Program-made: the position numbers and the translations under genes
Part shown: positions 1,150 through 51,700 of the stretch, one piece after another
Numbering within the stretch: the stretch's first letter is position 1
Layout of the letters: each line of letters begins with the position of its first letter
Origin: Leptobrachium leishanense
Lineage: Eukaryota; Chordata; Amphibia; Anura; Megophryidae
Length of the DNA: 64,000 nucleotides
Direction: 5' to 3'
Assembly (NCBI GenBank): GCA_009667805.1
Contig: CM019068.1
Coordinates: forward strand, 2,897,218-2,961,217
The notes under the pieces: model-generated
The model's database searches: none
What the model was told of the DNA's origin: nothing
Seen by the model: the letters and a program-made list of their open reading frames with translations, nothing else

Positions 1150-1500
1150 ACCCAGAGGAGAGGACCACCCCCAATAACACCCCCCCCCCCCGTGCGCGCG
1201 ACCAACCCGCCCCTGCAGTGCCCTGGGTCACACACACCGAGAGGGGGGGCCCGCGTAATACGGGGCCCAGGGTCACACACACGCGGGCCCCCCCCTCTCG
1301 GTGTAATGCGGGGCCCAGGGTCACACACACGCGGGGCCCCCCCCTCTCGGTGTAATGCGGGGCCCAGGGTCACACACACGCGGGACCCCCCCTCTCGGTG
1401 TAATGCGGGGCCCAGGGTCACACACGCGCCCCCCCCTCGGTATAACCCTCGGTGTAATGCGAGGCCCAGGGTCACACACACCCCTCCCCCGGTGTAATAC
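1150..1500. repeat. Minisatellite, proximal block of EIF3A intron 1
   Basis: About six imperfect ~47-50-bp units built on GGGGCCCAGGGTCACACACA, a C-run and CTCTCGGTGTAATG. It is a sister of the larger array that follows, from which it differs by a CACACACGCGGG spacer. The short stretch from 1031 to about 1150 is ordinary intron sequence. Confidence 0.85.
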
Positions 1501-4500
1501 GGGGCCCTGGGTCCCCCCCTCCCCCGGTGTAATACGGGGCCCTGGGTCCCCCCCTCCCCCGGTGTAATACGGGGCCCCGGGTCACACACCACGGCCCCCC
1601 CCGGTGTAATACGGGCCCTGGGTCCCCCCCCTCCCCGGTGTAATACGGGGCCCTGGGTCCCCCCCCCTCCCCCGGTGTAATACGGGGCCCTGGGTCCCCC
1701 CCCCTCCCCCGGTGTAATACGGGGCCCTGGGTCCCCCCCCCTCCCCCGGTGTAATACGGGGCCCTGGGTCCCCCCCCCTCCCCCGGTGTAATACGGGGCC
1801 CTGGGTCCCCCCCTCCCCCGGTGTAATACGGGGCCCTGGGTCCCCCCCCCCCCCCGGTGTAATACGGGGCCCTGGGTCCCCCCCCTCCCCGGTGTAATAC
1901 GGGGCCCTGGGTCCCCCCCCTCCCCGGTGTAATACGGGGCCCTGGGTCCCCCCCCTCCCCGGTGTAATACGGGGCCCTGGGTCCCCCCCCCTCCCCCGGT
2001 GTAATACGGGGCCCTGGGTCCCCCCCCTCCCCCGGTGTAATACGGGGCCCTGGGTCCCCCCCTCCCCGGTGTAATACGGGGCCCTGGTCCCCCCCCCCCC
2101 GGTGTAATACGGGGCCCTGGGTCCCCCCCTCCCCCGGTGTAATACGGGGCCCTGGGTCCCCCCCCTCCCCGGTGTAATACGGGGCCCTGGGTCCCCCCCC
2201 CTCCCCCGGTGTAATACGGGGCCCTGGGTCCCCCCCCTCCCCCGGTGTAATACGGGGCCCTGGGTCCCCCCCCTCCCCCGGTGTAATACGGGGCCCTGGG
2301 TCCCCCCCCTCCCCCGTTGTAATACGGGGCCCTGGGTCCCCCCCTCCCCCGGTGTAATACGGGGCCCTGGGTCCCCCCCCTCCCCCGGTGTAATACGGGG
2401 CCCTGGGTCCCCCCCCCCCCGGTGTAATACGGGGCCCTGGGTCCCCCCCCTCCCCGGTGTAATACGGGGCCCTGGGTCCCCCCCCCTCCCCGGTGTAATA
2501 CGGGGCCCTGGGTCCCCCCCCTCCCCCGGTGTAATACGGGGCCCTGGGTCCCCCCCTCCCCCGGTGTAATACGGGGCCCTGGGTCCCCCCCCTCCCCCGG
2601 TGTAATACGGGGCCCTGGGTCCCCCCCCTCCCCCGGTGTAATACGGGGCCCTGGGTCCCCCCCCTCCCCCGGTGTAATACGGGGCCCTGGGTCCCCCCCC
2701 TCCCCCGGTGTAATACGGGGCCCTGGGTCCCCCCCTCCCCCGGTGTAATACGGGGCCCTGGGTCCCCCCCCTCCCCCGGTGTAATACGGGGCCTGGGTCC
2801 CCCCCCTCCCCCGGTGTAATACGGGGCCCTGGGTCCCCCCCCTCCCCCGGTGTAATACGGGGCCCTGGGTCCCCCCCCTCCCCCGGTGTAATACGGGGCC
2901 CTGGGTCCCCCCCTCCCCGGTGTAATACGGGGCCCTGGGTCCCCCCCTCCCCCGGTGTAATACGGGGCCCTGGGTCCCCCCCCTCCCCCGGTGTAATACG
3001 GGGCCTGGGTCCCCCCCCCCTGGGTCCCCCCCCTCCCCCGGTGTAATACGGGGCCCTGGGTCCCCCCTCCCCCGGTGTAATACGGGGCCCCGGGTCACAC
3101 ACACCCCTCCCCCGGTGTAAACCGGGGCCCTGGGTCCCCCCCCTCCCCCGGTGTAATACGGGGCCCTGGGTCCCCCCCCTCCCCCGGTGTAATACGGGGC
3201 CCCGGGTCACACACACGGCCCCCCCCGGTGTAATACAGGGCCCTGGGTCACACACACGGCCCCTCCCCCGGTGTAATACAGGCCCCGGGTCACCACACAC
3301 GGCCCCCCCCGGTGTAATACGGGGCCCTGGGTCCCCCCCTCCCCCGGTGTAATACGGGGCCCTGGGCCCCCCCTCCCCCGGTGTAATACGGGGCCCTGGG
3401 TCCCCCCCTCCCCCGGTGTAATACGGGGCCCTGGGTCCCCCCCCCCCCGGTGTAATACGGGGCCCTGGGCCCCCCCCCTCCCCCGGTGTAATACGGGGCC
3501 CTGGGTCCCCCCCCTCCCCCGGTGTAATACGGGGCCCTGGGTCCCCCCCTCCCCCGGTGTAATACGGGCCCTGGGTCCCCCCCCCTCCCCGGTGTAATAC
3601 GGGGCCCTGGGTCCCCCCCCCTCCCCCGGTGTAATACGGGGCCCTGGGTCCCCCCCCTCCCCGGTGTAATACGGGGCCCTGGGTCCCCCCTCCCCCGGTG
3701 TAATACGGGGCCCTGGGTCCCCCCCCTCCCCCGGTGTAATACGGGGCCCTGGGTCCCCCCCCTCCCCCGGTGTAATACGGGGCCCTGGGTCCCCCCCTCC
3801 CCCGGTGTAATACGGGGCCCTGGGTCCCCCCCCCTCGTGTAATACGGGGCCCTGGTCCCCCCCCCTCCCCGGTGTAATACGGGGCCCTGGGTCCCCCCCT
3901 CCCCCGGTGTAATACGGGGCCCTGGGTCCCCCCCCCTCCCCCGGTGTAATACGGGGCCCTGGGTCCCCCCCCCTCCCCCGGTGTAATACGGGCCCTGGGT
4001 CCCCCCCCCTCGGTGTAATACGGGGCCCTGGGTCCCCCCCCCCCCGGTGTAATACGGGGCCCTGGGTCCCCCCCCTCCCCCGGTGTAATACGGGGCCCTG
4101 GGTCCCCCCCCTCCCCCGGTGTAATACGGGGCCCTGGGTCCCCCCCCCTCCCCCGGTGTAATACGGGGCCCTGGGTCCCCCCCCCTCGGTGTAATACGGG
4201 GCCCTGGGTCCCCCCCTCCCCGGTGTAATACGGGGCCCTGGGTCCCCCCCCCTCCCCCGTGTAATACGGGGCCCTGGCCCCCCCCCTCCCCCGGTGTGTA
4301 ATACGGGCCCTGGGTCCCCCCCCTCCCCGGTGTAATACGGGGCCTGGGTCCCCCCCCCTCCCCGGTGTAATACGGGGCCTGGGTCCCCCCCCCTCCCCCG
4401 GTGTAATACGGGGCCCTGGGTCCCCCCCCCTCGGTGTAATACGGGCCCTGGGTCCCCCCCTCCCCGGTGTAATACGGGCCCTGGGTCCCCCCCTCCCCGG

Positions 4501-6430
4501 TGTAATACGGGGCCCCGGGTCACCCCCCCCCCCCCCACCCCCCCCATACGGGGGGGCCCCCCCCCCCCCCCCCCCCCGGTGGTAATAACGGGGGGGGCCC
4601 CCCCCCTGGGTCCCCCCCCTCCCCCCGGTGTAATACGGGGCCCTGGGCCCCCCCTCCCCCGGTGTAATACGGGCCCTGGGTCCCCCCCTCCCCCGGTGTA
4701 ATACGGGGCCCTGGGTCCCCCCCTCCCCCGGTGTAATACGGGGCCCTGGGTCCCCCCCCTCCCCCGGTGTAATACGGGGCCCTGGGTCCCCCCCTCCCCC
4801 GGTGTAATACGGGGCCCTGGGTCCCCCCCCTCCCCCGGTGTAATACGGGGCCCTGGGTCCCCCCCCCTCCCCCGGTGTAATACGGGGCCCTGGGTCCCCC
4901 CCTCGGTGTAATACGGGGCCCTGGGTCCCCCCCTCCCCCGGTGTAATACGGGGCCCTGGGCCCCCCTCCCCCGGTGTAATACGGGGCCCCGGGTCACACA
5001 CACGGCCCCTCCCCCGGTGTAATACGGGGCCCTGGGTCCCCCCCCCCCCGGTGTAATACGGGGCCCTGGGTCCCCCCTCCCCCGGTGTAATACGGGGCCC
5101 TGGGTCCCCCCTCCCCCCCTCCCCCGGTGTAATACGGGGCCCTGGGTCCCCCCCCTCCCCCGGTGTAATACGGGGCCCTGGGTCCCCCCTCCCCCGGTGT
5201 AATACGGGGCCCTGGGTCCCCCCCTCCCCGGTGTAATACGGGGCCCTGGTCCCCCCCTCCCCCCGGATGTAATACGGGGCCCTGGGTCCCCCCCCTCCCC
5301 CGGTGTAATACGGGGCCCTGGTCCCCCCCTCCCCCGGTGTAATACGGGGCCCTGGTCCCCCCCTCCCCCGGTGTAATACGGGGCCCTGGGTCCCCCCCCT
5401 CCCCCGGTGTAATACGGGCCCTGGGTCCCCCCCTCCCCCGGTGTAATACGGGGCCCTGGGTCCCCCCCCTCCCCGGTGTAATACGGGCCCTGGGTCCCCC
5501 CTCCCCCGGTGTAATACGGGGCCCTGGGTCCCCCCCCTCCCCGGTGTAATACGGGGCCCTGGGTCCCCCCCTCCCCCGTGTAATACGGGGCCCTGGGTCC
5601 CCCCCCCTCCCCCGTGTAATACGGGGCCCTGGGTCCCCCCCCTCCCCGGTGTAATACGGGGCCCTGGGTCCCCCCCCTCCCCCGGTGTAATACGGGGCCC
5701 TGGTCCCCCCCTCCCCCGGTGTAATACGGGGCCCTGGGTCCCCCCCCTTCCCCGGTGTAATACGGGGCCCTGGGTCCCCCCTCCCCCGGTGTAATACGGG
5801 CCCTGGGTCCCCCCCCTCCCCCGGTGTAATACGGGGCCCTGGGTCCCCCCCCTCCCCCGTGTAATACGGGGCCCTGGGTCCCCCCCTCCCCCGGTGTAAT
5901 ACCGGGCCCTGGGTCCCCCCCCTCCCCCGGTGTAATACGGGGCCCTGGGTCCCCCCCTCCCCGGTGTAATACCGGGCCCTGGTCCCCCCCCTCCCCCGGT
6001 GTAATACGGGCCCTGGGTCCCCCCCTCCCCCGGTGTAATACCGGCCCTGGTCCCCCCCTCCCCGGTGTAATACGGGCCCTGGGTCCCCCCCTCCCCGGTG
6101 TAATTACCGGGCCCTGGGTCCCCCCTCCCCCGGTGTAATACGGGGCCCTGGGTCCCCCCCCTCCCCGGTGTAATACCGGGCCCTGGGTCCCCCCCTCCCC
6201 CGGTGTAATACGGGGCCCTGGGTCCCCCCCCTCCCCCGGTGTAATACGGGGCCCTGGGTCCCCCCCTCCCCCGGTGTAATACGGGGCCCTGGGTCCCCCC
6301 CTCCCCCGGTGTAATACGGGGCCCTGGTCCCCCCCTCCCCGGTGTAATACGGGGCCCTGGGTCCCCCCCTCCCCGGTTGTAATACGAGGCCCTGGGTCCC
6401 CCCCCTCCCCCGGTGTAATACGGGGCCCTG
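1490..6430. repeat. ~35-bp C/G-rich minisatellite filling EIF3A intron 1
   Basis: About 140 tandem copies of a 32-36-bp unit: CCCCCCTCCCCCGGTGTAAT then ACGGGGCCCTGGGTC. Copies differ mainly in homopolymer C length. The unit's only stop-like triplet (TAA) lies on the plus strand, so the minus strand stays open in all frames and gives spurious Gly/Pro/Arg-rich ORFs of over 1100 codons. A nearly pure C/G block with inverted G and C runs lies at about 4520-4600. A few units (for example near 3200-3300 and 4990) carry the CACACACGG variant of the proximal block. Confidence 0.95.
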
Positions 6431-6605
6431 GGTCACACGCGGGTCGCACCGGGTCACACGCGGGTCGCACCGGGTCGCACCGGGTCACACGCGGGTCGCA
6501 CCGGGTCACACGCGGGTCGCACCGGGTCACACGCGGGTCGCACCGGGTCACACGCGGGTCGCACCGGGTCACACGCGGGTCGCACCGGGTCACACGCGGG
6601 CCCCC
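6425..6605. repeat. 21-bp tandem repeat at the 5' end of EIF3A intron 1
   Basis: About eight copies of GGGTCACACGCGGGTCGCAC plus C, with one partial copy. The unit resembles the GGGTCACACACACGCGG segment of the proximal block, suggesting it was amplified from within the larger repeat. It ends about 75 bp inside the exon 1 splice donor. Confidence 0.9.
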
Positions 6606-8142: not shown

Positions 8143-8192
8143 TGGCCGCCTGGCTCATAATGGCAACCATCTTCCAGCCTGATTCCACTTCA
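8143..8192 (-). repeat. Remnant of the ERV 3' LTR
   Basis: These 50 bases match the 5' edge of the 5' LTR (18595-18644), including the terminal TGAAGTGGAATCAGGCTGGA read on the minus strand. The remaining ~610 bases of the LTR are gone and Tc1 sequence follows directly. The junction lies within or next to TGGCCGCCTGG. Confidence 0.9.
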
Positions 8193-8206: not shown

Positions 8207-8812
8207 CAAGCCTCAGGATCTCTTCCTGATGCTTGTAGCCATCACACCCCACTAGTATTATTCTTGAGTTCCTCATACTTTAGGGGACCCATTTTCGCTG
8301 GGAACATGTCTTGTGGGATTATAAGTGGTATCTTTTGTGTCTGTGTGAGTGTCAGTGCTCTCTTGCATAGGGACCATAGACATAGCCCTATGCGGTACGT
8401 CAGTATTCCTACAACCAGGATCACCACTATCATCAGAATCATGGATCCAATCTGTGAGATAAATCTCAGGATGGATCCAAACCACTCTCCGATTGCTCCG
8501 AACCCACGGAGTGGATTCCAGCCTTCAGCGGCGATTCTCCTTGCTGTGTTCTGCAACTGTGCTACCTTCTCTTGGTGATCCTGGATCACCTGGTAATAGT
8601 CCGGGACGTCGTGTGTAGTGTTCCTGATGAAGGTGCAACATTCATAGTGCATTGTCATTTCACACAATCCATTCAAGGCCGCACTGATCTGTTCTAGTGC
8701 CATATCATGTATCATCTGCACCTTTCGTATCTCACACACTTCCAGATTCAGCAACTGAATGTCCATACTGGTCTTATTCAGAATTTCATCCATCAGACTG
8801 GCATAACTGTTC

Positions 8813-9617
8813 TGTCACGGATGGCTCTGTTCTGGGGCGCCTGGCAGCAGATTCCTCGCTGCTCGCTGGCCAGGCGCCGAATAATAACGCCACCGGGTGC
8901 GCTCACGTGGGACGCCGGGGGGCGGAGCCTGGCGTTATGACGCGGACCCGCCGGGTTTAAAACCCGGCTTCACTAGTTCGCCGGTGCCCTGACGTGGTAT
9001 TCACTTCCCGCAGAGCTCTTGTGTTTTTGGCTAATATATCTGTGTCTGACCTTGCTTTTGGAAACGAACCATTCTGTGTATGACCCCTGGCATTGGCAAA
9101 CGAACCATTCTGTGTATGACTCCTGGCATTGGCAAACGAACCATTCTGTGTATGACTCCTGGCATTGGCAAACGAACCATTCTGTGTATGACTCCTGGCA
9201 TTGGCAAACGAACCATTCTGTGTATGACTCCTGGCATTGGCAAACGAACCACTCTGTGTATGACCCCTGGTATTGGCAAACGAACCATTCTGTGTATGAC
9301 CCCTGGCATTGGCGAACGAACCACCCTGTGCATAACCCCTGGTATTGGCATTCACTCTTCTCACGGTTCTGCTCTTAACTTTGGTACCGAGGTCAGTCTA
9401 TGTGGCACCCTAAGCACACATCAGACTACCTCTGATATTACTAAGGTCCTAGGGAGAACGAATACTCTATTCTGTACCTCTGTCTGGTGTTTACCCTTGC
9501 TTGTCTATTGTCTGGTTAGTGATCTATCTAGTTGTGCCGACCATTCAAGGATCGGAAGGGTAGAGAGCGATCTACGTAAAGGGACCACTATTTTGGTATT
9601 CAGGGGGATTCGTGACA
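8813..9617 (+). mobile_element. Solo LTR of a Ty3 chromovirus, inserted in ERV env
   Basis: An 805-bp LTR starting TGTCACGG and ending CGTGACA, flanked by a perfect 5-bp duplication TGTTC (8808-8812 and 9618-9622). It is a diverged relative of the LTRs of the chromovirus at 26892-32550, sharing the GGCGCCTGGCAGCAG block, the TTTAAA box (8956-8961), GTGCCCTGACGTGG and the 3' part. No internal sequence remains, so the element was lost by LTR-LTR recombination. It lies in the opposite orientation to the host provirus. Confidence 0.95.
9060..9345 (+). repeat. 36-bp tandem array inside the solo LTR
   Basis: About eight copies of a 36-bp unit beginning CATTCTGTGTATGACYCCTG and ending GCATTGGCAAACGAAC. 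The unit is a multiple of three, so all frames stay open, but it lies in a non-coding LTR. The full-length chromovirus LTRs carry about six diverged copies at the same place. Confidence 0.92.
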
Positions 9618-10826
9618 TGTTCATTCTTACCATCAACTCTCGTCCCCATCCAGTCCACGCCGGCAGCCATGACCATATTCGATCCACCTTTCTAAACATC
9701 TCTCTCTTCTGCCTTTCAAACACCAGTGGGTACCTAGGGTGGAGTTCTGTGTCTGTATTAGTGTCTTCTCCCCTTACTCTCTGAATTGGGATCAATTTAG
9801 CCAGATAACACATTCCCGTTATTTTTGGTGGTACCCATGTGTAACACACCTTCCCACAACACACCTGGTATCCCCCTCTCAATATAAATGGTGACAAATG
9901 TAGTGTTCCCTTTGCTATTTCTATCATCAGTTGTCTCAGCCGTTTCATCATATCTTGTGCACTCTGCCTTCCATCCATCACCTTTGCAATCACCGCCTCT
10001 TGCTCACTCGTGAGTTTTCTACATCGTATGTATAGAAAATTTGCCTGCTCCTTTGTGTTGAATGTGTAGATGTATGATGTCCAGTTGAACTTGCTTGAGT
10101 AGCACCCTCCACCCTCATTATGTGTGTCTCTATCTGGTCCTAGTTGGAAGCACCACTCTGGTGGGTATACTGGCCCTATTATAGGGTACCTGGGACTGAA
10201 TGATTCTGTTTTTTCTCTGGGTGCATCAAAAGCATGTATTGTGACATTCCCTGACGCAAACATACTCAGATTCATTGGAACAGAAGCAAATGGGATGTGG
10301 ATTGTCTCTGGGTGCAACCTACTACACACCCAGCATGCGGTTTGCCCAGACTTTTTAGCATAATCATATTTAAATTGCACAAGTAAATGTCCTCTTGGCA
10401 AAATCTCGGATGTCGCCTCTCGTTTTTGTCTCCACATAGTACGATTCTCCATCACCGGGTGCGTACCATTCCAGATATGGGAGATATCCACTTTCTTGGC
10501 GGTGCTTGGGCACCTGGGGCATGCTCCATGCGAGAGTCCATAGATCAAGTTTGCAAGGTACAAAATCAGTACCACAAATGCCCCAAATGTCAAAATCCCT
10601 TGGGCAATTCTTTTCACAGTCACATAAACCCAATCCCTCCCCACCGGAATTTCAAAAATAAAAGACATTTCCGGATGATCAAGGGTGGGGGACGGGCCCC
10701 TAAAAAGCACCCTTGGGGTATCCCCCGGGGGATCCCATTGCTCCCCTGTTGGTGGATGGTCAGGCCTTATTGTGTCCATCAAGACACCCACTTGTGAAAT
10801 CATTTGGGTGCCTTCAGTTGGATCAT

Positions 10827-12281
10827 TCAGATGCTCACGGCTGTGGTTTTTGTCAGCTTTAGCCTCAGCAGATTGGTCTCGTTGGTGACGACCTTCCATG
10901 CTGGTTCAGGACTGGCTGCAGCTACTTTCAGTCTGGAGTGATGTATCCACGGGACCACCTCGGCAACCTTTACTGCTGTAGGGGTTGATAACAGGACAAG
11001 GTAAGGACCTCTCCACTTTGGGCCTAGTGGGTCATTTTTCCACTCTTTCACCCATACTGAATCACCTGGAAAATACTTGTGGAGTGGGGGATACAAAAAG
11101 TGAGGTATATTATCTCCCACCCAAGTATTCAGTTTCTGCATTGATTTACCTAACAATACAACCTGATCATTTAATTTAGTTTCTCCCAATGCCCGAAGGT
11201 CCCCCCTTAGTCCAGTAATCAGAGGGGTAGGCCGTCCGAACATGAGTTCATACAGACTTAGCTTCAATTGGGGGGTTGGCCTGCACCTAATGTCCCGGCT
11301 GGGTGGAGTAGAGGTAATGTCACCGCTCTGCATGGAGAGAGCCTGTGGAGTCATGGGTTCAATCCCAGCAAGCAACCTCTCCAGTAAGTGTCCTTGGCAA
11401 GACACCTAACAGTACACACTCACCACCCAGGACATACTTGAAAACGAGAGAAATCTCAATGTATCCTTCCTGGTAAAATCCTTTCACAAAAAAAAAAAGA
11501 GGACTATCGGCAGCACATCCAACCAGCCTAGCGACGTCTCTTGGCACAATTTGGACATCAAAGTCTTTAGGGTGCAGTTCATTCTCTCGACTTTTCCTGA
11601 GCTTTGGGGCCTGTAGGCAGTATGTAGCTTCCAGGTGATGCCCAACAGGCGGGCAAGCTGTTGTAAACAGTTCTGTATGAATGCAGGGCCATTGTCCAAC
11701 CCTATCTCAAGAGGCAATCCATAACGTGGTATTATTTCTTTCATCAGACTTTTCACTACTTCCACAGTCTTTTCAGTTCTTGTTGGGAAAGCTTCCACCC
11801 ATCCTGTCAGAGTACACACCATTACCAGTAGGTATTTGTATCCTTTGCAGGGCGGCAGCACTGTGAAGTCTATTTGTAGCGATGCCATTGGGGATAGCCC
11901 GATTGGCTGCTTCCCTGGAAGTCGAGATGGGCCTGTTCTCGGGTTGTTTTTGGCACATGTCACGCACTGCTGGGCTATTGCTTTGCAGACTACTGACAGT
12001 CCGGGTACGTAGAAATGTGGCTCTAATTGCTGTTCCATCACTTCTCTTCCTCCATGGGTACTTGCGTGAAGTGTTCTTACAATCTCAGGAGCCAATGTTG
12101 CTGGTAGGACTATTTGTCCATTCTTCAACTGGAACCATCCGTCTTCTCCATATCCACCTTGTTCTTCTGATAGCCACTTCTTTTCTTTCTCTGAATATAC
12201 GGGTGTCCATTCACTCAGTGGCGCCGGTAGAAGTGCAGCCACCACTGGTTTTGCTTTGTATCGTGCCCATTCTCCATGGTT
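10827..12281 (-). pseudogene. pol: ERV integrase (C-terminal part of pol), split by a SINE
   Basis: Integrase joins viral DNA to host DNA. The zinc-binding HHCC domain is present (LHASTH, then CVTC). The catalytic core shows IDFT, LDNGPAF and KVERMN, a D,D(35)E triad, all intact in the frame running from 12611 to 11510. A ~200-bp SINE interrupts the reading frame just after the core. Downstream (about 11296-10827) the C-terminal region resumes with a GPYLVLL block like the GPY/F module of gammaretroviral integrases. The first part is one open frame with the second half of the OGFr domain. The pol stop overlaps the env start, as in gammaretroviruses. Confidence 0.92.
11297..11505 (+). mobile_element. 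tRNA-derived SINE candidate in ERV integrase
   Basis: About 200 bp with an A-box-like TGGAGTAGAGG and a B-box-like GGGTTCAATCCC at RNA polymerase III promoter spacing, ending in a run of A (about 11487-11501). It interrupts an otherwise continuous integrase reading frame. Target-site duplications are not obvious, so the exact ends are uncertain. I do not recognise the family. Confidence 0.65.
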
Positions 12282-12884
12282 TCCCCAGACAAATTCTTCT
12301 TTCGGGAAATAGTATCGCCATGTAAAGAACAGCAGATCTTGTCTGTCTTGTGAATCTCTTACTGCTGGTATGAAAAAGTTCATTGCACTTTTCTTCATTT
12401 TTGGCAGCTTATTTTTGATAAGGATCTCCTTGAGGAAGAACCTCACCAACGGGGCTTGGTACTCTTCTGCTCCCAATTCTCCCATACTTAGCAATATTCG
12501 TGTAATCCGTAGATTATTATGAAGGTTGGTTGTCAAATTTTCGAAACGTTCGGCGAAATTTTCTGCTCGTTCAATTTCTGTTACTTTTGTATCTTCTTCA
12601 TACTCCCCCATTCATTTTACGCCGAAGAATTTCAGCATCATTTTGTAGGCTCTGTGTAGTCTTTGCTGAACTTCTGAGGTGTTAATCATTAGGCGTGTCT
12701 CTTGCGGATTCAGAGGAGTGGAATAGAAATTTCGGCCTTGAGACTGAGTTGGGAAAAGCCATTGGATATAATCATGATTAAGTTCTAATAGTTCGTAATC
12801 ATCTTGCCATTTGTGCAATATAATTTCAATGAACTCGCCTTTGGGTTCAAATTTTCTCCAATTCATGTAGAATTCGTAGTTTGG
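12282..12884 (-). pseudogene. OGFr-like domain embedded in retroviral pol
   Basis: About 200 codons that match the conserved region of the opioid growth factor receptor family (OGFR/OGFRL1). Visible blocks include NYEFYMNWRKFEP, DDYELLELNHDYIQWLFP, HNNLRITRIL, a GELG motif, QAPLVRFFL, SAMNFF and EEFVWG, in the family's usual order and spacing and without introns. It lies after the RNase H end (GNRRADQAAK) and before the integrase HHCC domain. Its second half is in one uninterrupted frame with integrase for 375 codons. A single in-frame TGA at about 12612-12614 interrupts the domain, in line with decay elsewhere in the provirus. Host OGFR is a nuclear-envelope-associated receptor linked to growth inhibition; what a viral copy would do is unknown. 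The domain identity is strong; capture from a host gene is inferred. Confidence 0.93.
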
Positions 12885-12929
12885 CATGGGAGGTTGAGGC
12901 TCTTGCTTGCAGAGTAGGACTTTGGCTTG

Positions 12930-14194
12930 ATCAATTGTTAGCAATGGTTTTGCAGCTGCTTTTGCGGCCTGGTCAGCGCGCCTGTTGCCTTTTGGGATTT
13001 CATCATGACCTTTTGGTGGCCACGACAGTGCATGATACTGACAGCGCTTGGTTTCCATACAGCTTCTAGGAGGACCGCGATTTCAGCCGCATACTTGATT
13101 TGTTGTCCTGAGGAAGTAAGTAGGCCTCTTTCTTTGTAGAGTGCACCATGTGCATGGACTGTCATGAAGGCGTACTTGGAATCAGTGTAGATATTCACCC
13201 TCTTGCCTTCGGAGATTTCTAGAGCCCTGGTTAGGGCTGTTTTTTCAGCCAGTTGTGCAGATGTATGGCCTGGTAGTGGATTTGCTTCTATAATTTCTTC
13301 TGCTGAGACAACTGCATAGCCGGAGACTTTCTTCCCATCATCCATGTAACTGCTACCATCGGTGAATAGCTGTAGATCGTATTTGTCTAGGGGTACGTCT
13401 TTCAAATCTGGCCTGCTACTAAACACTTCTTCCATGACTTGGAGGCACTCATGATCTGGATCCTCTTCACAGTCAGGCAGTAAAGTAGCAGGGTTCAAGG
13501 TAGCGATGAGGTCCAGATGAACCCGTGGATTCTCACACATCATGGCTTGGTACTTTGTCATCCGGCTGTTGCTGAACCAGTAACTTCCTTTTACATCCAG
13601 CAGGGCTTTGACAGCATGGGGCACCTTGACGTGAAGAACTTGTCCAAGGGTCAGCTTGTCTGCTTCTGCTATCAGCATTGCGGTGGCTGCCACGGCTTTC
13701 AGGCATGGGGGTAGGCCACAGACCACAGGGTCGAGTTGCTTGGAGAGATAGGCCACAGGCCTCAGCCAAGAGCCGAAACTTTGGATCAGCACTCCTGTCG
13801 CTGTTTGATTGTGTTCATGCACGTACAGCTGGAAGGGCTTGCTGTGATCTGGTAGTCCCAGTGCAGGAGCTTCCATTAACAGAGTCTTTAACTTTAGGAA
13901 TGCTGCTGTTTGCTCTTCTTCCCAGAGGAAGGGGTCCTGTTCTCCCCCCTTTGTGGCCTGATGAAGGGGCTTGGCAATATCTGCGAAGTTGGGGATCCAC
14001 AGGCGGCAGAAGCCTGCAGCTCCCAGAAACTCACGAACTTGTCTCCTGGTCTTTGGTTGGGGTATTCGGCATACCGCTTCTTTTCTTTCAGCCCCGATGC
14101 GCGCTTTGTACCTGTTAATTGAAAACCTAAGTACTTTACACTTTGTTTGCATATTTGTGCTTTCTTTCTTGACACCCTGTAACCTGCTTGGCAT
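12930..14194 (-). pseudogene. pol: ERV RT connection and RNase H
   Basis: Continuation of pol after a frameshift near 14100-14130. It has the RT thumb/connection region (FLGAAGFCRLWIPNF, PLHQATKG) and an RNase H domain with TDGSSYMDDG, an acidic helix (EKTALTRALE), YTDSKYAFM and, after a second frameshift near 13010, the GNRRAD end motif. RNase H removes the RNA strand during reverse transcription. The motif residues look intact but the two frameshifts break the polyprotein. The OGFr domain follows some 20 residues after RNase H. Confidence 0.9.
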
Positions 14195-15297
14195 AGTAGA
14201 TGTAGCAGGGCTTTTGTGGCAGATAAACAGTCTTTTTCTGTGGGAGAAGCCAGTAATAAATCATCCACATATTGTAATAAGACAACTTTGTCTGGCTGAG
14301 CGTTGAAGGAGCGGAGGTCTTGGCTGAGCGCGCATCCGAAGATCGTGGGCGAGTTCTTGAAACCTTGAGGAAGGCGTGTCCAGGTCATTTGATGGCGCGC
14401 TCCACTGGTAGATTCCTCCCACTGAAATGCAAAAAGGGGCTGGCTTGCTGGAGCCAGACGGATGCAAAAGAAAGCGTCTTTTAAATCAAGAACCGTGTAA
14501 TATTTTGTATCTCCGGGAATTAGTGCCAACAAATTGTATGGATTGGGAACCACAGGGTGTAGGGTTACTGTGGCTTCATTGACAGCTCGTAAATCTTGGA
14601 CTGGGCGGTACTCTTGTGTGTCCTCTTTCAGTACTGGCAACAGGGGTGTGTTCCACGGTGACACGCAGAATTTCAATATGCCGTGGTTTTTAAGTCTCTG
14701 TAAATGTGTCTGGATATTCTGCTTGGCTTTTTGTGGGATATGATATTGTCTTAGAGCCACAGGCGTTGCACCAGGTTTTAAATCGACGTACACTGGGGGA
14801 ATATTTACAGCTAGTCCGAGCGGATTTTCCTCCGCCCATACCCCAGGAATTTCGAGGAGTAGTGTGTGCAGGTCCGGGCTTGCCGGCAGAGTTGGTGCTG
14901 TGCGCCATTCTTCCTCTCTTGGCATAATTACTGCAATTTTCACAGATTGGGGGTGCTGAATGGCTGGGTTGTACTGCCGAGCAGAGCTGCCACTCTCAGG
15001 CAGGTCTAATTGAGCATGTCCCCCGGGAAGGAACGTAATTTGGGCTTGCAATTTGCAAAGGATATCCTGCCCCAGGAGCTGGATGGGACATTCGGGCATA
15101 TACAAAAATTCATGTTCAACATTATGCCCACCCACACTACATTTTCGAGAAGCAAGGAAGGGGTACTTAGCAGACACCCCCATCGCTCCCATAATATCAA
15201 CTTCATTTCCCATAGGGGGTGCAATTTGCTGTGTTACGACAGAATATTCAGCACCGGTGTCAACCATAAAAATTTCATCTTTATTTCCCACTCTCAT
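14100..15297 (-). pseudogene. pol: ERV protease and reverse transcriptase
   Basis: The frame holds an aspartic protease (active site VDTGAEYS, residues 12-19 from the Met at 15297, and the LLGQDIL flap-side block). It then holds a reverse transcriptase with LPQGFKNSP, VLDLKDAFF and the YVDD box at 343-346. It is in the same frame as the end of gag, separated by stop codons, so the Met given is only the first one and not a real start. The frame is lost near 14100. The organisation (gag stop, then protease in frame) is that of gamma- and epsilonretroviruses. Confidence 0.92.
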
Positions 15298-15369
15298 AGT
15301 GACCGTGGGCTCGTGATTACCGAGCGGGATGGGCCCAGGTCCTTGTCAATATGTACCTTGCCCTTCAAA

Positions 15370-16901
15370 TTACGTTCCCGCCAAACCCACGAATCCTGCA
15401 CCGGCACCCTCACTCCTTTCATATGTGCCGTTCGTTACCTGACCATTGGAGGCTTGTCCTCCCGACTCCCCAGCCTCCCCTTGTTCCCCAAATTTAGCCA
15501 AAAATGCAGGACAATCATTTTTCCAGTGACCTTCACCCCGGCACCTGGCGCACTGGTTGGGTCCCAGGGGTTCCCTAGGGGCTCCCCTACCTCTTCCTCG
15601 AGCCCCCCTACCCCTTGCTCTCCCTCTGTCCGGGCCACCTCGTCCTCCACCATTTCCCATATAACCGACCACACCTGTGTGTCCTCTTTGTCTCTTTATC
15701 TCTTCCCGCTTCTCCTCTAGGTCCCGGTTATGAAACACTTTATTAGCAATTTCAACTAATTCGCTAATACCTTTTCCCAAGAACCCATCTAATCTCTGTA
15801 TTTTATTCCGTATATCTCTCTGTGACTGACCCACAAAAGAAGAATTAATTAACCTCTGGTTCTCCACTGCCTCAGGGTCAATAGGACTATACATCCTGTA
15901 CGCATCCAGCAACCTTTCTAAAAACGCGCTTGGGGATTCTTTAGGCTCCTGTACGATATCTGCTATCTTCCCCATGTTTGTGGGCTTTTTCCCTCCCACT
16001 TTAACACCCATTATTACTGCTGTCCGGTACGTCTGTAGGTGAGCAATACCTGCAGCGGTATTGTATGGCCATCGGGGATCTGTTTTGGGGTAATGCTCCT
16101 CTGCCCACGCTTCCGGCTGGGGCTTAGCATCTACTACGGCTTGGGCAAGCAGAATCTTCCGCGCGCTACTATTTATTCGGGCTCTTTAGTAAACATTGTC
16201 AGCATTAGTTGCTGACAATCTGCCCATGTGGGGTTATGCGTAAGCATAACTGACTCTATCATACTAGCCACTGCTGCGGGATTAGTGGAATACAGTGGTG
16301 TGTGTGTTTTCCAATTAAAGAGATCCGTTGTCGTGAATGGGACATATGTGTATTGCACTGGCCCAGGTGCTCCGCGTGGCGGAGCGAAGGGAGCTGGCCG
16401 GGAAGTAGCAGCTGCCTGCTCCCCCCTCTCCGCCCGCGCAACCGTGGCACTCAAAGCTTCTCTAGCTGCCCCATAACATGATGGATAGGGCGGGGGCAAA
16501 GAATCAATCTCCTCCGGTTGTTCTATCAACACCGGTCTCCCTTTTTCTTCATTATTTGGGGGTACCTGTTTCTTATTTTTTCCCGCCATCATTATAAAAT
16601 GACTTTTATCTTTTACACAATGCCTCCATATATCTATATACGGGTACTGCTCAGGATGTCCGCATTTCCCGGTGACTTGGGAATGCACTCTCTGTATTAG
16701 CTCCGGGTCCATTGACCCCTGCTCTGGCCACTCTGGAACTAACAGTGGCCACACAATTGTACACATCAATGTTAGTTTCTCCTTAGTTAACTCTATACCA
16801 TAATCATGCGTTGCATATAGCGCTTCAAAATTCTGCACCATATACCCTAAGGGCGTCTCACCCTTCTTTACCTTACTGGGTTTGGACAGCCCGTTACCCA
16901 T
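15370..16901 (-). pseudogene. gag: ERV gag
   Basis: Structural polyprotein. It starts MGNGLSK, giving an N-myristoylation glycine, with a matrix-like WPLLVPEWP block, then a PPPY late-budding motif (about residues 136-139). A frameshift near 16170 separates this from the capsid region. That region has the major homology stretch around ESPSAFLERLLDAYRMYSP, charged helices, a Gly/Arg-rich segment and one zinc knuckle CARCRGEGHWKNDC. These are hallmarks of gammaretroviral gag. The frame ends in TAA at 15370, with a TGA ten codons further and protease continuing in the same frame. Confidence 0.92.
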
Positions 16902-17957
16902 CGTTACCCTTAAAAAAACAGTAACCTTTTTACAATGCAGATATTACTTTTTAGCAAGAATACTTCAGTCAACAATTCATATGTGTCTGAGCCGCTTCCT
17001 CCGTCAGTAGCCGGACTGCAGTCGCCTGAGCCGGAAACGTACCTTGGGAGTCCACTCTCAAGTTTGCTTTCTCGCAATGCGAGTAGGCGCTCGATCACTC
17101 ACAGCACTCAAATCACTCACAGCACGTACTGTACCAGATACTTTCAGCACAAAACAAAACATAAACAATTCTACTCTCTCTACTAGCCGAGGGCACACCG
17201 TCCCTCCTTTTGGCTCCTTATACCCCGTCAATTGAACTCTACTCTATGTCTGTTTGTGGCTATGTGCACCCCGTTCTATAACTATACGCCCGTCTGCAAT
17301 TCCAATTTGCCTATGGATAATCTACCCACCCGGCACCACTACCTCTGCAGCTACCGCTGACCTCAATTGGCCCCCTTCACTACACGACGTACACACTAGC
17401 ACTGACTCAGGGCTCTCAGCCCAGTCACAGAAATCCCTCCTCCTTTCCTTGTCCACGTGCAGAAGCTCTGTTTACAAACACTGACTATGACTATGCAACT
17501 CCACGTGGCTACTCTCTCCCTCTCTTACAGAACTACCATTTGGTTGGCATCCGATCCCCCGGGTCCAGACACGCGCTAGCCACTCTGGCTCCTTTGCTTG
17601 TCCGTGCTATCTGCGGCGGGTTCGGTATGTCAACGACACCGTGGCCGCGGGTCTCCTTCTCCAACTATGGTCGGACGTTTTCCCTCTATACCGGTATCTC
17701 TGATACACATACAAACATAGAAGACACTTTACCTATCGCCGCGCTGCTTGCTGTTTCCTCAGACTCGGTGGTGTCCCAGCTTCCCGGGCCGGGGGTCCGT
17801 TTGGGACGAGATGAGGTCCACTGAACAGGAAATCCTGCTTGGCGCCTGCAGATGTCAGCGCACCTTCAACGGATGCCCAACCGACGGGATCACTCGCACC
17901 TGCAGTCAACCGCTACAGTGTTCAGCAGCCGTTGTTGTGCCGGCAAGGGCCCGTATC
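16902..17957 (-). other. ERV 5' leader
   Basis: About 1.06 kb between the primer-binding region and the gag ATG, where a retrovirus keeps its splice donor and packaging signal. I see no conserved ORF. Short open frames here do not resemble known accessory proteins. Confidence 0.6.
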
Positions 17958-17980: not shown

Positions 17981-18644
17981 TGTTACCGGAATCTGCTAGG
18001 TTCACTCGAGACGGAGCCGGACCGGACACAAACAAGGATTGTCTGAACACGAGTCTCTTCAGGAAAGGCAAACTTTATTAGTGTCGTCACACAATGCTCA
18101 CACAGGATTAAATCGCAAAGAGTGAGCCCCAATCTCACCCCGGCGAGGGGTTTTATACCCCGAATACATAATTAGGTACATCCCAATTAGCCCACCTCCC
18201 GGTGACACTTATCCCACCCCACGTGGGTTAATACCTCCCATTGTTAATACAAAGGCATTCCATACATTGACCGTAAATTGGCAAACTTCATGTTAGTCTG
18301 ACAGTTTGTGATTTGCTGCCGCACTCAATCCGGGCCGTGCCCACCTCCCTTGTGGCTGTGCTTGTTTATTCCAGATAAGACATGGTCTGGTTTCTACGCT
18401 CTCTTTGTCTCTCTGCAGGCCTTTGTGACCTTCATGTATCCATTCGTCATCCTGTCTCTCTGTGCCAAGAGCAGCCCGGATCTTCCCTTATTTTAATTGC
18501 TTCTCTGTTAATATAACACATTCCTAAGATTCTATGTAAGCTTCATTCTAAATCTACCTAGTTATTTTCAAGTGAACCAATATTCTGAACAAGATGGCCG
18601 CCTGGCTCATAATGGCAACCATCTTCCAGCCTGATTCCACTTCA
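17981..18644 (-). repeat. ERV 5' LTR
   Basis: A 664-bp LTR that on the minus strand starts TGAAGTGG and ends CCGGTAACA. It has a TATA box (GGTATAAAACCCC, about 18153-18165) and downstream a polyadenylation signal CTAATAAAG (about 18072-18080), giving a short R region. Its first 50 bases recur at 8143-8192 as the only remains of the 3' LTR. Confidence 0.9.
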
Positions 18645-33242: not shown

Positions 33243-33287
33243 AGACCTCACGATCACCAAATTAGAGAACGAGGATAGAGACACTGT

Positions 33288-33474
33288 CAGGGTTATTCAG
33301 AGAGAGGTGAAAAGCAGGAGAATGACTGGAGAATGAAAAATTCTAGGTCAAAATGGCCAAACCAGAAAAATTCTCCCTTTCATCTCACTTTCCAAATCGG
33401 CTACTTTGACCTAGAATTAGAATTTTTCATTCTCCAGCCATTCTCCTGATTTTCACGCTCTTTGAATAACCCTG
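33288..33474. mobile_element. Palindromic MITE, copy 1
   Basis: 187 bp, almost fully self-complementary, starting CAGGGTTATTCAGAGAG and ending with its inverse CTTTGAATAACCCTG. A second copy is at 39803-39984. No coding capacity. It interrupts PLE sequence. Target duplications are unclear, so the superfamily is unassigned. Confidence 0.85.
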
Positions 33475-39619: not shown

Positions 39620-41891
39620 CAGTGGCGACTCTAGGAACAATATTTAGGGGGGGCACAGAAGAAACCGCAGTCAAAACTGGGGGGGCACTAATAATTTTCA
39701 CCACTAAATCATATCACTGAATAAAACTAAGGGCCCTAACACCTGGTGTGAACTAAAACACCATCACTAAAGGAAACATTTAGTGCGAGTCGCTAAAACC
39801 TACAGGGTTATTCAGAGAGCGGTGAAAAGCAGGAGAATGACAGGAGAATGGAAAATTCTTGGTCAAAATAGCCAAACCAGAAAAATTCTCCCAGTCATCT
39901 CACTTTCCAAATCGGCTATTTTGACCTTGAATTTAACATTCTCCAGTCATTCTCCTGCTTTTCACCGCTTTCTGAATAACCCTGTTAGTGCCTGACGACT
40001 TACTAACAGATCACCTTGACTGCAGTAGTCCATGAACAAGGTCGTTTGGCGCACGCTAGGGAAACTCTAAGACCCGGGTTGAGACCCAGCGCTAATGCGG
40101 TTGTGTACAGGATAGAACGTTTTTTCTTTTCCATACCTATCCCCGCCCTCACAAGCTTGAATATGAACACATCCAGTGAATCACCTCTCACTCCTGCATT
40201 ATTAAAATCCTCCACGGTGGCCGTATTATCCATGTTTTGATTCACACATATATTAAGGCTGATGGGCATTGCATGATAAATGCCACCCAGCAGCATGTAG
40301 AATCATTACACTGCATTTAATAGATCCAAAAGGAAGGCCAGGTGAGCGACACAAATTTCCCTGCTGCAGCATATAAATACATGTTTCAGGGCAAGACTTA
40401 TTCACGTGTCCCTTTAAACATGGTCCACACAGTCACCCTAATAATCAACTGCTTCCATACAATGAATAACCCCCAGCATAAAATGTTTAAAATTAGGCAA
40501 TATATTAGAATTAGGATATATGTGCATAAAGGATACATTTATAATAGAGCTTACTGCAACAGCAGCGACATTGCTGACCATATCCATTACTATGGTGTAT
40601 GGGGCCAAGAGAACACCTGTGCTGCATTCCTTTCAATTGCCTATTAATTTTGGACAAGGACCAGGTTTTTCTGTTTTTTTGGAGTTAGCACCAGGGTTGA
40701 GCAGTAGGTAAAATGTTGCAATTAGTGCACCTCAAAAAATTTAGCGCTGGCACCAAGTGATCTGTTAGCTACAAAAGCGCTAGAGATCTCTAGCACTCCC
40801 TATGTTAAGTATAGGACGCGGAAAGTACAGTAAGCTTGCGGTACAAATCGCTAATAGCAATGCGCTAAGTGATTTTTCCCATTTGTAGCGGGAAGCAAAC
40901 AATCTGTTGGTCCAGCGCTAGACTCGATTAACCTGGCGCTAACGCAAAATCACGCCGACGCAAGGGTTAGCTCACACCCGGTAATAGTGCTCTAAATAAG
41001 TATATATAAATAAGATTCCAAAACCCCAGAGTAATATGATGCAATGAGTAATGTGATGCAGTGATGCCTTTTTGTTGTACTAACCTGATACTTAAATTCA
41101 ATATTTTATTCGCTGCAATTCGGCAGTTTTCGCTGAATGTCTGATAGCTGCTTCAGCGACTCCACTTTTAGCAAATTACAGTGACCATTCCCTAAATATG
41201 GAATTCACCTTATTCTCGGGAAAATTAAATTCCCCGAAATGTGACGGAAAGCAGAGGATCTAAAGATAAATAGACCCATTAGATTCTAACTTCCATAATA
41301 ACCCCTAAAATGCCATAAACCCAGAGAAATACAATAAAAATAATAAACAATGTGGCATTTAGCTACCCCTTAACCCGTAAAATGCCATTCATCAAGGGAA
41401 AACCTGAAATGAATACACTGAGGCATGTAGTTTACCCATCAACCCGTAAAATGCCATTAATCAAGGAAAAAACAAATGTATACTGTAAGGGATGAAGCCT
41501 GCCCATTAACCCTTAATATACAACTAAAACCAAGGCAAAAACTAACGTAATACACAATGTAGTGTATAGTCTGAACATTAACCATTTCACTGCTGATCCA
41601 TTTCAACCCTGTGAAAATGTTTAAGTTTAAGTACACGTTTTTGTTTATTGTTTTATGACTTCTACTTCACACTGAATATGGTCATGTGGGGTATCATTGG
41701 AAAGGCCAGAATCTGCCCTTTCAAATGACACCTAGCTCGTCCATATACGATGCATAGCGACGGAGATACGTTGGTCCGAAGAAGTGTGGGAAGCTGGATG
41801 CTGATTTTTGGTGGGGGGGGCACATGGGGGGGCAAGGAATAACCTAGGGGGGGCAATTGCCCCCCCTTGCCCCCCTGTAGAGTCGCCTATG
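39620..41891. mobile_element. Non-autonomous hAT element in L1 ORF2
   Basis: 2272 bp with a perfect 8-bp duplication GACACGCT (39612-39619 and 41892-41899), the hAT hallmark. Ends are CAGTGGCGACTCTAG and, inverted, CATAGGCGACTCTAC. A G/C palindrome (GGGGGGGCAATTGCCCCCCC, near 41856) lies just inside the right end. No transposase is visible. It contains MITE copy 2, and its right end resembles the terminus at 48270. Confidence 0.92.
39803..39984. mobile_element. Palindromic MITE, copy 2
   Basis: 182 bp, same family as 33288-33474, with terminal CAGGGTTATTCAGAGAGCGG and its inverse. It lies inside the non-autonomous hAT, so it inserted after that family formed or is carried by it. Confidence 0.85.
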
Positions 41892-48758: not shown

Positions 48759-51700
48759 GCAGCGCAGCGCAGTGTATGAGCGTGTCACAGAGCCACAGAA
48801 CTATAAATCTGATGTGCAGCGCAGTGTATGAGCGTGTCACAGAGCCACAGAACTATAAATCTGATGCGCAGCGCAGTGTATGAGCGTGTCACAGAGCCAC
48901 AGAACTATAAATCTGATGTGCAGCGCAGTGTATGAGCGTGTCACAGAGCCCCAGAACTATAAATCTGATGTGCAGCGCAGTGTATGAGCGTGTCACAGAG
49001 CCACAGAACTATAAATCTGATGTGCAGCGCAGTGTATGAGCGTGTCACAGAGCCACAGAACTATAAATCTGATGGCAGCGCAGTGTATGAGCGTCACAGA
49101 GCCACAGAACTATAAATCTGATGTGCAGCGCAGTGTATGAGCGTGTCACAGAGCCACAGAACTATAAATCTGATGTGCAGCGCAGTGTATGAGCGTGTCA
49201 CAGAGCCCCAGAACTATAAATCTAATGTGCAGCGCAGTGTATGAGCGTGTCACAGAGCCACAGAACTATAAATCTGATGTGCAGCGCAGTGTATGAGCGT
49301 GTCACAGAGCCACAGAACTATAAATCTGATGTGCAGCGCAGTGTATGAGCGTGTCACAGAGCCACAGAACTATAAATCTGATGTGCAGCGCAGTGTATGA
49401 GCGTGTCACAGAGCCACAGAACTATAAATCTGATGTGCAGCGCAGTGTATGAGCGTGTCACAGAGCCACAGAACTATAAATCTGATGCGCAGCGCAGTGT
49501 ATGAGCGTGTCACAGAGCCACAGAACTATAAATCTAATGTGCAGCGCAGTGTATGAGCGTGTCACAGAGCCACAGAACTATAAATCTGATGTGCAGCGCA
49601 GTGTATGAGCGTGTCACAGAGCCACAGAACTATAAATCTGATGTGCAGCGCAGTGTATGAGCGTGTCACAGAGCACAGAACTATAAATCTAATGTGCAGC
49701 GCAGTGTATGAGCGTGTCACAGAGCCACAGAACTATAAATCTAATGTGCAGCGCAGTGTATAGGAGCGTGTCACAGAGCCACAGAACTATAAATCTGATG
49801 TGCAGCGCAGTGTATGAGCGTGTCACAGAGCCACAGAACTATAAATCTGATGTGCAGCGCAGTGTATGAGCGTGTCACAGAGCCACAGAACTATAAATCT
49901 GATGTGCAGCGCAGTGTATGAGCGTGTCACAGAGCCACAGAACTATAAATCTGATGTGCAGCGCAGTGTATGAGCGTGTCACAGAGCCACAGAACTATAA
50001 ATCTGATGTGCAGCGCAGTGTATGAGCGTGTCACAGAGCCACAGAACTATAAATCTGATGCGCAGCGCAGGGTATGAGCGTGTCACAGAGCCACAGAACT
50101 ATAAATCTGATGTGCAGCGCAGTGTAATGAGCGTGTCACAGAGCCAGAACTATAATCTGATGCGCAGCGGCAGGTATGAGCGTGTCACAGAGCCACAGAA
50201 CTATAAATCTGATGTGCAGCGCAGTGTATGAGCGTGTCACAGAGCCACAGAACTATAAATCGAGTGCAGCGCAGTGTATGAGCGTGTCCACAGAGCCACA
50301 GAACTATAAATCTGATGCGCAGCGCAGTGTATGAGCGTGTCACAGAGCCACAGAACTATAAATCTGATGTGCAGCGCAGTGTATGAGCGTGTCACAGAGC
50401 CACAGAACTATAAATCTGATGTGCAGCGCAGTGTATGAGCGTGTCACAGAGCCACAGAACTATAAATCTGATGTGCAGCGCAGTGTATGAGCGTGTCACA
50501 GAGCCACAGAACTATAAATCTGATGTGCAGCGCAGTGTATGAGCGTGTCACAGAGCCACAGAACTATAAATCGGATGCGCAGCGCAGTGTATGAGCGTGT
50601 CACAGAGTCACAGAACTATAAATCTGATGTGCAGCGCAGTGTATGAGCGTGTCACAGAGTCACAGAACTATAAATCGGATGCGCAGCGCAGTGTATGAGC
50701 GTGTCACAGAGCCACAGAACTATAAATCTGATGTGCAGTGCAGTGTATAGGAGCGTGTCACAGAGCCACAGAACTATAAATCTAATGTGCAGCGCAGTGT
50801 ATGAGCGTGTCACAGAGCCACAGAACTATAACTCGGATGCGCAGCGCAGTGTATGAGCGTGTCACAGAGCCACAGAACTATAAATCGGATGCGCAGCGCA
50901 GTGTATGAGCGTGTCACAGAGTCACAGAACTATAAATCTGATGTGCAGCGCAGTGTATGAGCGTGTCACAGAGTCACAGAACTATAAATCTGATGTGCAG
51001 CGCAGTGTATAGGAGCGTGTCACAGAGCCACAGAACTATAAATCTGATGTGCAGCGCAGTGTATGAGCGTGTCACAGAGCCACAGAACTATAAATCTGAT
51101 GTGCAGCGCAGTGTATGAGCGTGTCACAGAGCCACCGAACTATAAATCTGATGTGCAGCGCAGTGTATGAGCGTGTCACAGAGCCACAGAACTATAAATC
51201 TGATGTGCAGCGCAGTGTATGAGCGTGTCACAGAGCCACAGAACTATAAATCTGATGCGCAGCGCAGTGTATGAGCGTGTCACAGAGCCACAGAACTATA
51301 AATCTGATGTGCAGCGCAGTGTATGAGCGTGTCACAGAGCCACAGAACTAAAAATCTGATGTGCAGCGCAGTGTATGAGCGTGTCACAGAGCCACCGAAC
51401 TATAAATCTGATGTGCAGCGCAGTGTATGAGCGTGTCACAGAGTCACAGAACTATAAATCTGATGTGCAGCGCAGTGTATGAGCGTGTCACAGAGTCACA
51501 GAACTATAAATCGGATGCGCAGCGCAGTGTATGAGCGTGTCACAGAGCCACAGAACTATAAATCTGATGTGCAGTGCAGTGTATAGAGCGTGTCACAGAG
51601 CCACCATATCTATGTGCAGCGCAGTGTATGAGCGTGTCACAGAGCCACAGAACTATAACTGATGCGCAGCGCAGTGTATGAGCGTGTCACAGAGCCACAG

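Follow-up and report, generated by a model that had tools for sequence, protein, structure and literature searches.

An OGFr domain between RNase H and integrase in the pol of a gamma-like endogenous retrovirus of Leptobrachium leishanense

The provirus in the window and its interrupted OGFr domain

We analysed a stretch of 64,000 nucleotides from the toad Leptobrachium leishanense (assembly GCA_009667805.1, contig CM019068.1, forward-strand positions 2,897,218 to 2,961,217; hereafter the window). On its minus strand lies a provirus of gamma-like type (class I, ERV1), which runs from about 18644 to 8143; this endogenous retrovirus (ERV) carries an OGFr domain in its pol. The original prediction, made from the sequence alone, had placed this domain at 12282-12884 between RNase H and integrase. 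A Pfam scan of nine open reading frames (ORFs) found it between these two enzymes, with a total OGFr_N extent of 12276-12890 (minus strand); both halves scored far above the curated cut-off of 22 bits, so that the proposed check by profile hidden Markov model came out positive. The features of the provirus are as follows.

18004..18644, minus strand: 5′ long terminal repeat (LTR), aligning with the LTRs of other copies, mostly near full length
16593..16856, minus strand: Gag matrix domain (Gag_MA; PF01140, E 8.8e-11)
15730..16110, minus strand: Gag p30 capsid, main part (PF02093, E 6.1e-34); another piece lies in ORF 16173-16943
15508..15555, minus strand: single Gag zinc knuckle (PF00098, E 3.5e-4)
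15037..15315, minus strand: retroviral protease domain (PF00077, E 8.3e-13)
14116..14631, minus strand: reverse transcriptase (RT) domain (PF00078, E 8.3e-32)
13007..13375, minus strand: RNase H domain (PF00075, E 3.3e-19)
12891..13006, minus strand: linker from RNase H to OGFr, with an AKVLLC motif, in a frame unlike that of RNase H in this copy
12615..12890, minus strand: OGFr domain, first half (PF04664, profile 5-96, E 1.9e-29, 103 bits; ORF 12612-13082)
12612..12614, minus strand: in-frame TGA interrupting the OGFr domain of this copy
12276..12596, minus strand: OGFr domain, second half (PF04664, profile 98-204, E 2.4e-37, 129 bits; ORF 11484-12611)
11937..12104, minus strand: integrase zinc-binding (H2C2) domain (PF17921, E 7.3e-10)
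11607..11891, minus strand: integrase catalytic core (rve; PF00665, E 3.1e-16)
10920..11081, minus strand: integrase C-terminal domain of murine leukaemia virus (MLV) type (PF18697, E 8.1e-18)
8242..10905, minus strand: env region (ORFs 9505-10905 and 8242-8814), assigned by position, with no Pfam match
8143..8192, minus strand: truncated 3′ LTR remnant, 50 bases identical to part of the 5′ LTR

The provirus is marked as ERV1 by Gag_MA and Gag_p30, by its single zinc knuckle and by an integrase C-terminus of MLV type. Domains of gag, pro and pol are all retained according to Pfam, and env is assigned by position only. The gag and pro regions share one frame with two stops separating them; Pol of ERV1 type is produced via readthrough of the gag stop. 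No dUTPase domain was found in the scan of the nine ORFs.

The window copy is dead: its pol is spread over several frames, a stop lies inside OGFr, and the 3′ LTR is reduced to 50 bases. RNase H and the first half of OGFr stand in different frames. The second half shares a single open frame of 375 codons with Integrase_H2C2 and rve, exactly as had been read from the sequence. Because this copy is interrupted, membership of OGFr in the polyprotein rests on other copies. The AKVLLC of the linker may be what is left of the host sequence that preceded the OGFr domain (RAASDL/AAKDL).

OGFr-bearing copies and relatives without the domain

A search of the window's own genome with the OGFr_N profile gave 5871 first-look candidates, and all 150 that were scored lay above the cut-off (242-277 bits). 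Thirty-eight OGFr loci, which are distinct places in the same genome and were all found through their OGFr, were examined for neighbouring pol domains. Integrase lay downstream on the same strand in 38/38, and RT or RNase H lay upstream in 34/38. The domain is thus not debris or a private insertion in one dead provirus, as had been argued. That it belongs to the polyprotein had also been claimed, from the window copy, which is insufficient by itself; the claim is upheld by L009 to L012, each a single open frame of 1347-1420 codons containing protease, RT, RNase H, OGFr and both integrase parts. L013 has an open frame of 1569 codons in which integrase is partial.

When the ends of ten copies were checked, five end pairs aligned and five did not. 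LTR identities were 99.7, 99.4, 99.0 and 97.1%, with a fifth, partial pair at 96.2%. The 4-bp flanks were identical in all four LTR pairs looked at; Table 1 of PMC4299795 gives 4 bp as the ERV1 target-site duplication. The OGFr domains of L009-type and L014-type subfamilies are ~54% identical. The near-identical LTR pairs and identical flanks indicate that at least two distant subfamilies have OGFr-bearing members that were copied recently. L. leishanense is among the species with invading ERVs in the legend to Fig. 6 of PMC10435555, the main text of which does not contain the words OGFR and opioid. Distances on the OGFr and pol trees were correlated (r 0.74; Mantel 0/2000; 21 copies), with topologies differing in places.

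The top protein match was a UniRef entry from L. leishanense (Megophryidae), 98% identical. UniRef contains such proteins already, some named for the OGFr domain; we found no description of them. Of the 43 OGFr proteins retrieved from L. leishanense, 31 matched RNase H or integrase as well and 12 did not; four of these 12 matched the host gene. A search with the integrase part gave 182 significant proteins; OGFr_N was present in seven of the best 120, all seven from L. leishanense. With a combined OGFr and integrase profile, among the best 120 of 751 rows none from outside L. leishanense had both OGFr_N and a pol domain. Such absence elsewhere is weak evidence because protein collections under-represent repeats.

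Seven gamma-like pols from lizards, caecilians and a Logan contig (P0123, P0125, P0126, P0128, P0138, P0141 and P0143) have no OGFr_N; identity was 53-67% in the RT/RNase H part and 49-57% in the integrase part. In the nearest of them, P0123, residues 424-760 correspond to query residues 1-337, and residues 763-992 to query 567-795. About 229 extra query residues therefore stand against two residues of P0123 at the RNase H/integrase junction. Relative to the pol that lacks OGFr, the insertion has a clean junction, at the very site that had been named. Non-primate lentiviruses carry dUTPase at exactly this place, between RNase H and integrase. As a separate observation, annotated ERV pols of Pelobates fuscus (P0182) and Microcaecilia unicolor (P0219) pass directly from the end of RNase H to the integrase core; the annotations omit the zinc domain and the interval of the OGFr site, at a near-identical position in the two species. 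The gene model LOC134609439 of P. fuscus and its Microcaecilia counterpart leave out this interval.

Several neighbourhood features were also recorded. Long tandem arrays flank the window provirus on both sides (1255-6434 and 48764-56600), with units of ~35 bp (seen in 4025-5961) and ~52 bp. A 36-bp tandem repeat is present nine times at 8978-9409, between the env ORFs. The segment 7910-8142 adjoins the truncated 3′ LTR and contains a 100-aa ORF, which we take to resemble the end of a Tc1/mariner transposase. Elsewhere in the genome, a young provirus copy (L029/L030) lies inside a tandem array, with the same ~41-bp repeat outside both LTRs.

Resemblance to host OGFR

The suggested tree of viral and host domains was built with the host gene included. 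All 28 viral OGFr domains grouped in a single clade (100/99). Its sister was Leptobrachium OGFR (100/98), and Pelobates OGFR came next after these two (89/87). Approximately unbiased (AU) tests rejected an anuran OGFR clade excluding the virus (p 0.008) and a host-only clade of Pelobates and Leptobrachium (p 0.023). OGFRL1 was rejected as the source, the virus falling inside OGFR and the five OGFRL1 rows forming a separate clade (100/100). Of the likeness to OGFR/OGFRL1 that was first noted, the OGFR part holds and the OGFRL1 part does not.

The host has two OGFR genes on C12, ~15 kb apart. These two toad genes are represented by loci L066, L067 and L072 (G000:C12); Xenopus tropicalis has three OGFR-like proteins, on contigs of identical length. 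In the host the OGFr domain is split by at least four introns, located before GEFIE, after SYIQW, before MMKKD and before HSHNN; the first of these was seen in one gene, with L072. The viral domain aligned unbroken in 28/28 copies, with insertions of at most two residues. Leptobrachium host OGFR (P0259, P0261, P0263 and P0269) is 53-69% identical in the domain to the 12 viral copies compared; it has introns and a C-terminal part, whereas the virus lacks both.

The most host-like copy, the old L061, runs from RNase H into host codons 3 to ~273 (P0259 numbering) and then into integrase. Its identity to the host was 58% over residues 3-86, 64% over 3-182 and 79% over 187-244; the last 23 host residues were matched via P0269, and the host-derived part contains two stops. 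L022 retains DSWDEEEEEEW and the stretch preceding the OGFr domain, and L014 and its kin show a weaker resemblance to the host N-terminus (31%, E ~1e-9). The linker before OGFr was measured in 29 of 31 distinct loci. In seven copies it was 292-393 bp long, in 21 it was 69-117 bp, and L003 had 1297 bp; the length was divisible by three in 24/29. Linker length evidently follows lineage, not age alone, because L014 has near-identical LTRs and a long linker. At the other end, host WGPxEKLxxYKK leads into integrase, and the viral part stops at this motif or soon after it; the virus has part of OGFR, not the whole receptor. The old copies L001 and L005 were 66-69% identical to the host and the young L009 53-55%. 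That some old copies are nearer to the host than young ones is expected if the direction was from host to virus.

Taken together, the sequences show a single capture of host OGFR mRNA in spliced form, followed by trimming and amplification. The lineage of the window copy has lost most of the N-terminal part of the receptor, some of which other copies retain.

Selection, possible role and known systems

A measurement of the ratio of nonsynonymous to synonymous substitution (dN/dS) across viral copies had been proposed; the median pairwise value for OGFr was 0.12 at a median dS of 1.31 (102 non-independent pairs among 17 of the 28 copies, the least broken being chosen and saturated pairs dropped). 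Medians elsewhere in pol were 0.06 for RNase H (12 copies), 0.09 for the integrase zinc domain (12), 0.04 for the integrase core (13) and 0.06 for the RT connection (7). At least 90% of viral copies kept the residue at 40 of 54 host-invariant sites and at 30 of 147 other sites, and site constraint in the virus tracked that in hosts (rho 0.58). At no site conserved in at least 80% of hosts had the virus fixed (95%) another residue. These patterns show the viral OGFr to be under purifying selection.

From 40 aligned proteins of virus and hosts, AlphaFold2 confidently predicted a domain that is helical apart from two short strands (mean predicted local distance difference test score 89.6; predicted template modelling score 0.86). 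One match stood out among models of viral proteins: the OGFR homologue of Marseillevirus LCMAC202 (A0A481YX38, E 6e-6), which by predicted models would be an instance of the OGFr fold in a virus. It differs in being a free-standing protein of a giant DNA virus, with 21% identity. Two further observations concern OGFr-like sequences elsewhere. A large viral contig of IMG/VR (378,912 bases) has a locus (L059) that is 32% identical; and the 944-aa protein P0013 of Serrasalmus rhombeus had an OGFr score far above that expected from its 47% identity, perhaps containing several OGFr domains.

The explanation that we prefer, and that as a whole we hold to be fairly probable, combines a single capture, trimming, and a selected Pol domain that competes with host OGFR. 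As the sequences show, a retrovirus of gamma-like (ERV1) type in the Leptobrachium lineage took up part of a spliced host OGFR mRNA. This was the 5′ half, beginning near the start codon and ending just past the OGFr domain, and it entered in frame at the junction of RNase H and integrase; all sampled OGFr-bearing copies descend from that event. The window lineage then dropped most of the N-terminal part of the receptor and kept the domain of ~205 residues. OGFr, which in several copies is in frame with all the rest of Pol, has been held by purifying selection in recent replication. It may keep its original job, the binding of the conserved partner or ligand of OGFR. That it still does so is probable, because the virus keeps the residues that hosts keep, without the rest of the receptor. 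The viral protease probably releases or exposes it. Gammaretroviruses depend on dividing cells, and a Pol-borne OGFr competing with the host's growth-restraining receptor would favour such cells. A competitor would be the simplest use, because host OGFR is tied to growth restraint and these viruses need dividing cells. Host OGFR is linked to restraint of proliferation in passages and cited titles of PMC5876317 and PMC8363427. For the role of Pol-borne competitor taken singly, our confidence is tentative.

Several points weigh against this explanation. The first tree and its AU tests, made before the host's OGFR was added, rejected nothing and did not place the virus firmly. Because the loci were all selected by their OGFr, they give no measure of pols without the domain. 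A further locus, L071, has ~0.97 kb between its OGFr halves (490-1458), close to where the fourth intron lies in the host gene. The insert contains a ~190-bp dispersed repeat, also found at 33280-33474 and 39803-39984 of the window, and had no match in the other DNA compared, including stretches of the host gene; the repeat and the missing match lead us to regard it as having been inserted later, and not as an intron. The OGFr protein sequence evolves ~3 times faster than the integrase core. A fold search of the PDB gave no match at E <= 0.001, which leaves the mechanism without an anchor. The viral part ends before the C-terminal half of the receptor, where the literature places nuclear localisation signals, and Pol products are low in amount, which is awkward for a competitor. 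The proposed role is drawn from sequence comparison.

Other readings were weighed. One is that OGFr is a fourth working subunit of Pol, packaged in virions beside RT and integrase and with an activity, be it catalysis or the binding of a partner, that the virus needs; on the sequences compared this may be so, though we stop short of calling it probable. A second, somewhat unlikely in our judgement, is that OGFr serves in the virion or pre-integration complex as a nuclear-entry handle or an extra cofactor of integrase or RT, and not as a competitor of the host protein. Its position beside integrase in all 38 loci is in keeping with such a role, as is the housing of dUTPase in the pol of non-primate lentiviruses, described in a passage of PMC1224870. 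However, the viral copy stops before the host C-terminal half, and the host-like constraint pattern fits the competitor and virion readings equally. Still more doubtful is the view of OGFr_N as an enzyme, or a domain binding small molecules, that has gone unrecognised and is carried for its activity as dUTPase is. At least 90% of viral copies retain host-invariant polar residues (including E, Q, H-N, R and T of NHxYIQWLFP and HNNLRITR), and by predicted model the fold recurs in the giant virus protein; yet the empty PDB search means that no activity can be named.

It is highly improbable that the insert is a passenger, retained merely since deletions or stops would break the frame into integrase. 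Stops and frameshifts would indeed be purged from a domain within one long frame, but frame keeping alone predicts dN/dS of ~1, viral constraint follows that of hosts, and the window lineage shed the N-terminal part yet kept the domain; barring a saturation artefact in the selection result, this reading is already refuted. A private OGFR retrocopy in one dead provirus, for which the broken window copy might speak, or several independent captures can practically be dismissed, given the integrase that follows OGFr at every locus, the single viral clade, and OGFr and pol trees whose distances correlate even where topologies differ.

On the preferred explanation, the virus would be a rare case of a host growth regulator built into a viral replication polyprotein and kept there under selection, with retention spanning both long divergence and recent spread. 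The capture can be traced within one genome, from the long OGFR insert of L061 to the trimmed domain. Viral copies reveal which OGFr residues persist outside the receptor, and offer a sequence-rich handle on a domain with no PDB match. If OGFr is a fourth Pol subunit, the virus would be the simplest system for finding the molecular role of OGFr in animals.

Among the papers listed from an open-licence library, outside which most subscription papers and bioRxiv preprints lie, we found no report of OGFr in a retrovirus. Host mRNA capture and extra pol domains are each known; their union in one lineage is new. According to section 15 of PMC4299795, retroviruses carry captured host genes mostly as ORFs of their own, frequently acquired at the expense of viral genes; those discussed there act on cell division, as the competitor reading would have OGFr do. 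Most acute transforming viruses lose viral genes, whereas the window provirus keeps its gag, pro and pol domains. The KIT-ligand capture of crocodilian CrocERV29 is likewise reported, in the relevant part of PMC4299795, to be under purifying selection; there the captured gene lies between pol and env, whereas OGFr is fused in frame inside pol. The same source treats the cyclin homologues of walleye retroviruses and src of Rous sarcoma virus (RSV), which are also captured regulators of host cell division; these are additional ORFs, whereas OGFr is a pol domain and OGFR restrains growth. The dUTPase of non-primate lentiviruses, in the passage of PMC1224870 cited above, is likewise an extra domain within pol; it differs in being a known enzyme, an unrelated domain and a feature of another retroviral class than that of the OGFr-bearing virus.
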